A stretch of 64,000 nt of DNA. Origin: Candidatus Delongbacteria bacterium (GTDB lineage Bacteria > UBA4055). Below are positions 20,341 to 22,724 of the stretch, piece after piece; within the stretch, counting starts at the first letter, position 1, and every line of letters begins with the position of its first letter. The notes beneath the pieces were generated by a model. That model made no database searches and had not been told where the DNA came from. It saw only the letters and a program-made list of their open reading frames with translations. The position numbers and the translations under genes were made by a program. The stretch is taken from contig JAFGVM010000064.1 in NCBI GenBank assembly GCA_016937995.1, positions 1-64,000 of the forward strand. The letters are read 5' to 3'.

Positions 20341-20371
20341 CATACAAACAGCACAATTGTATGTTTTTTTT
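20341..20371 (+). terminator. Rho-independent terminator of hisS
   Basis: CATACAA (20341-20347) pairs with TTGTATG (20357-20363), followed immediately by eight Ts. It starts 5 nt after the hisS stop. Confidence 0.75.
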
Positions 20372-20374
20372 CAG

Positions 20375-20400
20375 CTTTCTTTTGCTTGCCCAAAAGAAAG
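20375..20400. repeat. CTTTCTTTTG hairpin of a dispersed element
   Basis: CTTTCTTTTG-CTTGCC-CAAAAGAAAG is a perfect 10-bp stem. A 15-nt piece in inverse orientation (GGCAAGCAAAAGAAA) recurs at ~35338-35352, and a related stem is at 18817-18842. The stretch 20401-20630 that follows shows no reading frame and no other structure I can support; with this element it makes up most of the 460-nt gene-free gap 20336-20795. Confidence 0.55.
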
Positions 20401-20635
20401 TTGGAAAGAAAAGGGCAGCACGAACGCTAATTTTGGGACTACCGGTATTTTTCACTTTAAAATCTGAATCCCATATTAACTGGAAGTAGTTTTTACACAT
20501 CAGTGAAAAATCACTTTCGTCAGGTAACCAAAATTCCGTTAAGTGCTAAAAAATCAAACAAAAGCAAAATAACATTTTACAACCAGACAAATTGAAAGTT
20601 TGATTTGCGATATACTTGGTTACTCATCTAGTAAA

Positions 20636-20676
20636 TGTATGTAAAAACCGAACAAATGTATGGAATAGGCGAACAA
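20636..20676. promoter_or_regulatory. Operator-like unit pair 1 (two 20-bp units at 21-bp pitch)
   Basis: Two copies of TGTATG-N7-CGAACAA at 20636-20655 and 20657-20676. With the base before each unit they approximate a dyad with outer half-sites NTGT and ACAA. The pitch of 21 bp puts both units on the same face of the helix. The pair lies upstream of the promoter of the MNT gene and is repeated at 20745-20785. Confidence 0.7.
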
Positions 20677-20678
20677 TA

Positions 20679-20711
20679 TACAGATAAAATACAGATAGAA
20701 TACAGATAATT
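20679..20711. repeat. Three 11-bp tandem repeats abutting the -35 box
   Basis: TACAGATA recurs at 20679, 20690 and 20701, an exact 11-bp period (one helical turn). The last unit ends 2 nt before TTGACT. Phased repeats directly upstream of a -35 box suggest an activator or UP-like site. Confidence 0.65.
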
Positions 20712-20712
20712 C

Positions 20713-20741
20713 TTGACTACGGCAAAAGATTGTATTAAATT
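20713..20741 (+). promoter_or_regulatory. Probable promoter of the MNT-HEPN operon
   Basis: TTGACT (20713-20718) followed after 17 nt by TAAATT (20736-20741). It lies between the two operator-like pairs, and the downstream pair covers the expected transcription start. Base matches to sigma-70 consensus are good at -35 and moderate at -10. Confidence 0.55.
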
Positions 20742-20744
20742 TAT

Positions 20745-20785
20745 TGTATGTATAAACCGAACAAGTGTATGGTCTAAGCGAACAA
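20745..20785. promoter_or_regulatory. Operator-like unit pair 2 (two 20-bp units at 21-bp pitch)
   Basis: TGTATG-N7-CGAACAA at 20745-20764 and 20766-20785, the same arrangement as pair 1, displaced by 109 bp. Unit 3 reads TTGTATG...CGAACAA, the best dyad of the four. Sitting between the -10 box and the start codon, bound repressor would block transcription. The encoded winged-helix/MNT protein is the natural candidate ligand. Confidence 0.7.
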
Positions 20786-20795
20786 TAGGATTGGT

Positions 20796-21383
20796 GTGAG
20801 CATTTTAGCAGAAATATTTTCTTCAAAAGTTCGGTCTGAATATTTTAGAATTTTATTCGGACTGGAAAGTAAAGAGTATCATCTTCGGGAAATTCAAAGA
20901 CTTTCCGGTTTTGCAATTGGTTCTGTCAGGCAAGAGGCTCAGAAGTTGACAAAACTTGAACTGATCCTTAAACGGATAGATGGGAACAGAACCTATTATT
21001 CTGCAAATAAAAATCATCCGCTATACTCAGTTTTTCATGATCTTGTTATGAAAACAAATGGATTGGCAGATGTTCTCAAGAATTCTTTAAATGTTGAATC
21101 GATTGATTATGCTTTCATTTTTGGATCAATAGCATCCGGAGAAGAAAGACCTGAGAGTGATGTAGATCTTTTTGTGATAGGCAAGATCGGATTAAGAGAG
21201 CTGAGTAAACTTTTAAAAGAAGCAAATACCATTATTGATAGAGAAATAAATCCTTATACAATATCTATGGAAGATTTTATTCAACGCAAGAACGAGAATG
21301 ATCACTTTATATCAAGGGTCTTAAACTCTTCAAAAATTATTATTAAAGGAAGCATCGATGACATTGAAAAACTGGGAGAGTAA
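20796..21383 (+). CDS. Winged-helix + MNT-type nucleotidyltransferase (probable antitoxin/regulator)
   Basis: A 195-residue protein with an N-terminal winged helix (~1-75, LREIQRLSGFAIGSVRQEAQKL with a wing around DGNRTYYSA) and a C-terminal minimal nucleotidyltransferase carrying Gly110-Ser111, Asp122 and Asp124 in GSIASGEERPESDVDL and a likely third carboxylate at Glu150. In MNT-HEPN pairs the nucleotidyltransferase protein is the antitoxin and modifies or binds the HEPN toxin; the DNA-binding domain would add autoregulation. It starts with GTG at 20796, 10 nt after the last operator-like unit, and overlaps the HEPN gene by 26 nt. Confidence 0.82.
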   Translation: MSILAEIFSSKVRSEYFRILFGLESKEYHLREIQRLSGFAIGSVRQEAQKLTKLELILKRIDGNRTYYSANKNHPLYSVFHDLVMKTNGLADVLKNSLNVESIDYAFIFGSIASGEERPESDVDLFVIGKIGLRELSKLLKEANTIIDREINPYTISMEDFIQRKNENDHFISRVLNSSKIIIKGSIDDIEKLGE

Positions 21384-21798
21384 CGGCTGGCTTAAATCTC
21401 ACAGCTCGAGCAAGCAGGAAATTGAACAACTGCTTCAAATAGTAGATCGTGATATTAAAGATTCCAAGCAAACAGATCTGTCACCGGACTGGAGATTTGG
21501 TATAGCTTATAATGCTGCTTTGAAACTTTGTACTATTTTATTATATTCAGAAGGTTTCATGGCAGAAAGATCTGCAACACATTATCGTACGATCCAGTCA
21601 CTCAGTCTTATACTCGGAAAAGAGAGAGAAGATGATGCAGATTATCTGAATACATGTAGAGCAAAAAGAAATATGGTCGAGTATGATTCTGTCGGTGGTG
21701 CAACTGATGCGGAAGCCGATGAACTGATAGATTTCGTTGGAAATTTAAAAGATGATGTACTTAAATGGTTGAAGATAAATCATCCGGAATATTTATGA
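21358..21798 (+). CDS. HEPN-domain protein (SAV_6107-like), partner of the MNT protein
   Basis: A 146-residue all-helical protein. RFGIAYNAALKLCTILLYSEGF (~46-67) and RAKRNMVEYDSVGG (~101-114) match the HEPN pattern of the SAV_6107-like group as I remember it. Arg104-Asn105 of the HEPN RNase-type motif is present, but the catalytic His position holds Tyr109 or Asp110, so ribonuclease activity is uncertain. The start overlaps the MNT gene by 26 nt and the stop overlaps the panE start by 4 nt (ATGA). HEPN proteins next to MNT proteins are typically toxins or abortive-infection effectors; here that is inference from context. Confidence 0.75.
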   Translation: MTLKNWESNGWLKSHSSSKQEIEQLLQIVDRDIKDSKQTDLSPDWRFGIAYNAALKLCTILLYSEGFMAERSATHYRTIQSLSLILGKEREDDADYLNTCRAKRNMVEYDSVGGATDAEADELIDFVGNLKDDVLKWLKINHPEYL

Positions 21799-22724
21799 AT
21801 AATAAAATCGTAATATTAGGAGCAGGGGCAGTTGGTTCTACTCTTGGAGCCGCTTTGGAGGAGAAGTATTCCGGTTCAGTTACTCTTATCGGTAGAAAAT
21901 CACATGTTGATAAGATAATTTCTGACGGTCTTTCTATTGAAGGAGATGTTTCTAAGAATCTTAAGATCAGTGCTAAGACAAAGATAGATTTCAGCTTAGA
22001 AAATACTTTATTGATCATTTCCACTAAGATAACGACCCTCCCTGGTGCTATTGAAGAGATATTACCATTTGTCACTGATACAACGACGATATTATTGATC
22101 CAGAACGGTTATGGTGCAAAGGATATTGCAATTGAAGCTATTAATGGAAAGATATCTGAGAATAATGTTTATCAGTCGATAATTTCCATGGGTGTTGTTT
22201 TCAGAGAGCCGGGGATAATTGATTTCTGGGGTGGTGGAATAAAAGTAGAGAAACCTTTCACAGAGACAGATTATTCTGAGATATTCAAAGATACGTTCAT
22301 AGATTTCAAAGCCACAAGGAATATTGGTCACGCTATATGGTATAAGCTTGTGATTAATAGCGTTGTAAATCCTTTGTCGGTAATATTAAAAGCTAAGAAC
22401 AAGGTTATAGCAGAAACCCAATATAATGATCTAAAAGAAAAAATATTGAATGAATGTATAGCTGTTGCAAAAAGTGAAGGGTTTGATACAAGTATGACTG
22501 TTGAACAATTCAATTCTTATATTTCAAACGACAACTATACCTCAATGCTGCAGGATTATTTTTATAAGAGAAATAACGAGATAGATCTTATAAACGGAGT
22601 GATAATCAGGTTTGGTGAAAAGAACGGTTTAGATGTTTCAATGAATAAATTGATATTTGATCTGGTTAAATCTATTGAAAAAGTCAATCTGGAAGGGAAA
22701 TCAATATCCAACATACAAGGATAA
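21795..22724 (+). CDS. panE: 2-dehydropantoate 2-reductase (ketopantoate reductase) family
   Basis: A 309-residue NADPH-dependent reductase of the pantothenate pathway, converting 2-dehydropantoate to pantoate. It has the Rossmann motif VILGAGAVGS at residues ~5-14 and the conserved helical-domain segment IWYKLVINSVVNPLSVILKAKN near 180-201, whose Lys is the catalytic residue of the family. I start it at ATG 21795, which overlaps the HEPN stop as ATGA; the ten codons upstream lie inside the HEPN gene. ApbA/PanE paralogues are sometimes not true PanE, and no panB, panC or panD gene is nearby, so the substrate is less certain than the fold. Confidence 0.85.
   Translation: MNNKIVILGAGAVGSTLGAALEEKYSGSVTLIGRKSHVDKIISDGLSIEGDVSKNLKISAKTKIDFSLENTLLIISTKITTLPGAIEEILPFVTDTTTILLIQNGYGAKDIAIEAINGKISENNVYQSIISMGVVFREPGIIDFWGGGIKVEKPFTETDYSEIFKDTFIDFKATRNIGHAIWYKLVINSVVNPLSVILKAKNKVIAETQYNDLKEKILNECIAVAKSEGFDTSMTVEQFNSYISNDNYTSMLQDYFYKRNNEIDLINGVIIRFGEKNGLDVSMNKLIFDLVKSIEKVNLEGKSISNIQG

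Follow-up and report, generated by a model that had tools for sequence, protein, structure and literature searches.

It was concluded that the region upstream of a winged-helix-MNT gene is very probably an autoregulated PDC-M05 promoter, at which the MNT protein would repress its own operon through two adjacent dyads in the -10/+1 region. The region lies in the window, a stretch of 64,000 nucleotides from a Candidatus Delongbacteria contig. A two-site layout of the same kind, with ever-changing letters, was found before distant relatives in many bacterial lineages. Autorepression by the winged-helix MNT protein had been suggested in a first-pass annotation of the same DNA. This reading was strongly supported by the family-wide geometry, the tracking between half-sites and recognition helix, the placement over the -10/+1 region and the missing layout before MNT genes without a winged helix. 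The binding of MNT, the repression, the dimer state and stoichiometry of the bound protein and a toxin-antitoxin role of the pair are what we infer from the sequence comparisons.

Operators and promoter in the window

Four exact copies of TGTATG-N7-CGAACAA were present in the window (20636-20655, 20657-20676, 20745-20764 and 20766-20785). The pitch was 21 bp within each pair and the distance between the pairs was 109 bp, and the positions given in the first-pass annotation were confirmed by an exact motif scan. When the window was dinucleotide-shuffled 60 times, TGTATGN7CGAACAA was never matched exactly. The genome search suggested in the same annotation returned no further exact copies in the 2.75-Mb assembly (2,745,438 bases), where the next-best match (C65:22574) had one mismatch and was a single isolated dyad. 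The predicted operator was located at its own promoter and was unique to that promoter in the genome.

The differences between odd and even units were as described earlier. The units had been regarded as direct repeats; the repetition stood, but the units were not merely direct, as every one was also an imperfect palindrome, a 21-bp dyad TTGTATG-N7-CGAACAA with the half-sites TTGTATG/TTGTTCG. Since a unit and one more base make up the 21-bp dyad, each operator pair consists of two abutting dyads (Table 1). The 43-nt block 20636-20678 was 88% identical to 20745-20787, and a duplication of the operator pair as a block is plausible. The O4 dyad adjoins the ribosome-binding site, and the transcription start is expected to be covered by O3.

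Table 1. Features of the PDC-M05 control region and genes (positions of the window)
Feature	Position	Strand	Basis and remarks
O1, upstream pair dyad 1, ATGTATG-TAAAAAC-CGAACAA	20635..20655	.	exact motif; counterpart in L039 and L042 at a distance of 98 bp
O2, upstream pair dyad 2, ATGTATG-GAATAGG-CGAACAA	20656..20676	.	exact motif; 21-bp pitch to O1
Three TACAGATA repeats, spacer	20679..20708 (starts 20679, 20690, 20701)	.	11-bp pitch; not conserved in L039 or L042
-35-like TTGACT	20713..20718	+	promoter scan (alone not above chance); relatives carry it at the matching position
-10-like TAAATT, 17-bp spacer	20736..20741	+	promoter scan; relatives
O3, main pair dyad 1, TTGTATG-TATAAAC-CGAACAA	20744..20764	.	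exact motif; conserved in L039, L040, L042 and L012
O4, main pair dyad 2, GTGTATG-GTCTAAG-CGAACAA	20765..20785	.	exact motif; conserved like O3
Winged-helix-MNT protein (PDC-M05A), GTG start	20796..21383	+	profile and structure comparisons; predicted autorepressor and nucleotidyltransferase
Codons of residues 40-53 (residue 40 and modelled recognition helix 41-53)	20913..20954	+	covariation; structural model
HEPN-type partner (PDC-M05B)	21358..21798	+	PADLOC profile; partner alignment

The main pair, just after the -10 element, was preceded by a sigma-70-like promoter, TTGACT-17-TAAATT (20713-20741), which in the scan alone was not above chance; the same elements were found at the same position in relatives. 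The location of the second pair between the -10 box and the MNT start codon had been reported correctly, and the placement was the same in four related genomes. The TACAGATA repeats had been described as abutting TTGACT. Their 11-bp pitch was verified, but a gap of 4 bp separates the end of the last repeat from the -35 element. As the repeats were not conserved in L039 and L042, and hence not even within the genus, they were rejected as a conserved element, and a role for them was not supported.

A dispersed non-coding repeat of ~200 bp (20362-20574) was observed between hisS and the operators. Its copies were located on C56, C3, C81 and C37 of the genome with 78-91% identity, and none was seen at the corresponding site of the related genomes. 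The operator repeats themselves were rejected as a dispersed element, since the motif occurs nowhere else in the genome as an exact copy; the repeat at 20362-20574 is separate from them.

Conservation in close relatives

Four related genomes were compared, namely L039/G001, L040/G003, L042/G002 and L012/G010, the first three being named Candidatus Delongbacteria. In all four, the main pair was located between the -10 element and the start codon and the pitch was always 21 bp, so that the phasing, which the first-pass annotation had proposed to check in relatives, was found to be kept. The main pair was conserved between genera and the surrounding DNA was not.

Among these close relatives only members of the window's genus had the upstream pair. 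Its distance from the main pair was 98 bp in L039 and L042 and 109 bp in the window, and the 11-bp difference falls within the TACAGATA spacer. The pair was absent from L040, L012 and most homologues and is therefore dispensable. It was regarded as a genus-level extra that may perhaps strengthen the repression in this genus. A further operator unit, TGTATGTACAAACCGAACAA, precedes the upstream pair by 67 bp (G001:C181 / L010 position 1285, L039 position 2785), hence the L039 species may carry three blocks. Extra tandem pairs were also recorded 61 bp (L132) and 58 bp (L150) upstream of the main junction at loci outside the genus of the window, and so a second pair arose more than once.

Operator layout across distant homologues

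The homologue set contained 99 non-redundant loci of <65% identity, 72 of them used at first hand and 27 held out. In the 100 bases that precede the aligned start, the fit sought the position, dyad length and pitch (14-35) giving the highest score for four half-sites resembling one another. Homologues at 25-60% identity had quite different upstream sequences and the same layout. The best pitch in the 72 loci was 21 in 36, 22 in 13 and 20 in 7, when 2.4, 2.6 and 3.4 loci, respectively, were expected from shuffles. The pitch distribution was flat in the controls, taken 300-400 bases upstream and within the gene. Predictions for the held-out set were written beforehand, and 23 of its 27 loci had a pitch of 21-22 (3.65 expected for 20-22). 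Over both sets, 79 of the 99 loci fitted best at a pitch of 20-22 near the promoter (~12 expected), and 20 were without the layout. The layout was fitted by 66 of the 73 loci with a detected HEPN partner. MNT genes without a winged helix showed no excess (2 of 26, 3.35 expected), which indicates that the layout accompanies the winged helix.

In 54 of 56 loci the midpoint of the dyad junction fell between two bases, typically between ACAA and TTGT, and the pitch of 20, 21 or 22 results from a dyad interior of N6, N7 or N8. Half-site positions 2-4 were mostly TGT throughout the family. Positions 6 and 7 carried 0.07 and 0.05 bits across loci and agreed in 84% and 73% of within-locus comparisons, respectively, values which are somewhat inflated because the fit maximises within-locus agreement. 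The half-site sequence was nearly constant within a locus and free between loci. A promoter was recognisable in 53 loci, and in ~25 of these the -35 element stood 25-29 bases before the junction, hence the junction overlaps the -10 element there (often TACAAT); in most of the 53 the pair was on or beside the -10.

Covariation with the recognition helix

Locus distances in half-site bases 5-8 were compared with the distances per protein column, the overall protein distance being allowed for. The leading columns among 178 were those of S43 and A40 (76 loci), reached by none of 2000 permutations, and the next-ranked G38, R45 and L54 are in or beside the recognition helix. A guanine at half-site base 6 was recorded in 13 of 14 loci with Asp40 and in 5 of 62 others. 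When the held-out loci were taken alone (n=23), the column ranking was not significant and residues 40 and 43 did not take the lead stated for them beforehand. All 4 held-out cases agreed with the pre-stated pairings of Asp40 with G6 and of Gly40-Ala43 with C6C7. A tree-based pair test of Asp40/G6 gave four independent pairs only, about three of them concordant and none discordant, a number too small to decide, and the same kind of test did not support the Gly40/C6 link. The covariation is to be read with the independent changes on the tree in mind, which were too few to exclude common descent.

These data suggest that half-site bases 5-8 are read in part by residues 40 and 43, where the modelled recognition helix begins.

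The encoded proteins

The gene pair clearly belongs to PDC-M05. The M05A protein matched PDLC04368 (7.7e-51) over residues 3-192, covering the winged helix and the nucleotidyltransferase, and the adjacent M05B HEPN protein matched PDLC04374 (2.7e-45) over residues 1-145. The two genes overlap by 26 bp, and relatives have ATG at the position of the GTG start of the MNT gene.

In the AF2 model of the MNT protein (mean pLDDT 88.5, six aligned sequences), residues 41-53 form the recognition helix and residues 57-70 the wing. Residues 1 to ~95 matched ArsR-type repressors best (BigR, SqrR, CzrA and NolR; VIA-align Z 10-11.5), matches that speak to the fold and not to DNA binding, and the best structural matches of the C-terminal part were MNT antitoxins (MntA). 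Sequence similarity to NF033788 (HTH_metalloreg) was weak (18.1 bits, cut-off 55), and a Pfam search of the MNT protein gave no HTH match. The GSX10DXD motif was found at residues 110-124 (GSIASGEERPESDVD).

No Pfam or NCBIfam model matched the HEPN partner. Instead of the canonical Rx4-6H it carries the motif R104-N-x3-Y109 (R104-N-M-V-E-Y109, no His). R104, Y109 and H75 were conserved in 93%, 97% and 93% of 73 HEPN partners, respectively, and the catalytic mechanism of this partner family, if any, may be unusual.

The stop codon of the HEPN gene is overlapped (ATGA) by a ketopantoate-reductase-like (PanE/ApbA) gene (21796-22724). In L039 and L043, too, a relative follows the HEPN gene, and this is possibly a third operon gene in the genus of the window. 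A viral origin was rejected, as no relatives were found in viral contigs or phage records. Matches were present in 14 plasmid records, half of them from Legionella.

Proposed mechanism and alternatives

It was proposed that the MNT protein would use its ArsR-like winged helix to bind two neighbouring 21-bp dyads, both on one face of the DNA helix. Residues 40 and 43 would take part in reading half-site bases 5-8; the outer TGT is common to the family. MNT bound over the -10/+1 region would block RNA polymerase, and the operon would stay low until the MNT protein was titrated, modified or lost.

A more elaborate arrangement, in which the dimers on the upstream and main pairs are in contact by DNA looping or HEPN-oligomer bridging and the repression becomes very tight or conditionally cooperative, was judged rather unlikely. 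In three species of the genus an upstream pair lies on one and the same side of the promoter, the distances of 98, 98 and 109 bp differ by 11 bp or about one helical turn, and the unrelated L132 and L150 carry extra tandem pairs at 61 and 58 bp. However, most homologues, L040 and L012 included, manage without the upstream pair, none of the distances (98, 109, 61 and 58 bp) is an integral multiple of the helical repeat, and three spacings are too few for phasing. The position of the upstream pair, just upstream of the -35 element, is also a frequent one for activators, and MNT might activate from the pair instead of repressing. Such activation is highly unlikely, since the pair shared by all lineages lies over the -10 or the start site, which is the position of a repressor.

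The sites might also be used by another regulator encoded elsewhere and not be bound by MNT, as winged-helix folds can serve other roles and MNT binding here is something we infer. This was considered very unlikely: the layout travels with the MNT gene across lineages and is missing before MNT genes without a winged helix, the operator letters track the MNT recognition helix, and the lack of any other exact site in the genome would be unusual for a global regulator. Mere local tandem or block duplication, or a part of a dispersed element, with no regulatory role would agree with the dispersed repeat directly upstream (20362-20574), the repeated 43-nt block and the TACAGATA units, which resemble a simple tandem expansion. 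But the motif is confined to one site in the genome, the main pair is kept between genera when the surrounding DNA is not, and the same geometry recurs with other letters across the family, so that this explanation is extremely unlikely.

It was suggested tentatively, at somewhat less than an even chance, that promoters throughout this toxin-antitoxin or candidate defence family have a fixed geometry (two abutting dyads, 20-22 bp pitch, the junction often being the -10) in which operator letters and recognition helix change together. If so, each copy would be transcriptionally insulated from its paralogues, one protein would both modify the toxin and repress its own gene, and nucleotide or HEPN binding would perhaps switch the DNA binding.

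Significance

No published description of the abutting-dyad operator architecture was found in the literature searched (most subscription journals lay outside it). The control region with its operator is what is new here; the autoregulated antitoxin is a kind already known. PDC-M05 is widespread, its function and control are unconfirmed, and the operator offers a direct handle on them. For many homologues it supplies a partial recognition code and predicted binding sites. It could also serve as a simple reporter of when the system switches on (e.g. by phage), and the repressor-operator pairs make up a natural orthogonal set. Through it, HEPN-MNT systems, which the literature searched does not describe as DNA-binding, are tied to the classic autoregulated toxin-antitoxin operons.

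Comparison with known systems

PDC-M05 is a PADLOC candidate defence system composed of the M05A nucleotidyltransferase and the M05B HEPN protein, the anti-phage activity of which is unconfirmed (PMC12988326). Both window proteins match it in the same gene order, and no difference from a member of the system was found. The window system shares with type VII HepT/MntA (PMC7641770) the MNT fold, the GSX10DXD motif and an MNT gene upstream of the HEPN gene, and its MNT protein has structural matches to 7bxo, 8xeo and 8xeh. The HepT/MntA paper makes no mention of promoters or repression (PMC7641770). MntA is without a winged helix, whereas the window MNT has one and falls below the curated cut-off of the NCBIfam MntA model (28.7 of 60 bits); the toxin motif RX4HXY of HepT is missing in the window HEPN (RNx3Y). 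A further mark of type VII systems is that their HEPN toxin is AMPylated. Because the MNT enzyme is shared, the winged helix is not and RX4HXY is absent, the window system was not filed as type VII.

Dimers of ArsR-type repressors bind dyads at promoters. Their fold is like that of residues 1 to ~95 of the window MNT; however, the sequence similarity is weak and the window winged helix is fused to an enzyme. BrxR is a WYL winged-helix repressor of a defence operon that binds inverted repeats near the -10 (PMC9122601), and it differs from the window MNT in belonging to another protein family, in using a single inverted repeat and in not being an antitoxin. According to a 2009 survey, the non-HEPN-toxin side of MNT-HEPN modules is unlikely to hold a transcription regulator (PMC2701414), a picture to which the window winged helix is an exception.

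AbiEi (PMC3985639) and Rv2827c (PMC7319586) are winged-helix antitoxins that autoregulate their operons through inverted repeats at the promoter. Their winged-helix family and C-terminal domain differ from those of the window MNT, the nucleotidyltransferase of AbiE is the toxin, unlike that of the window system, and the AbiE repeats are two 23-bp arms, whereas those of the window are abutting 21-bp dyads. As AbiEi and Rv2827c autoregulate through inverted repeats, the window system would work like a known kind, the autoregulated antitoxin.
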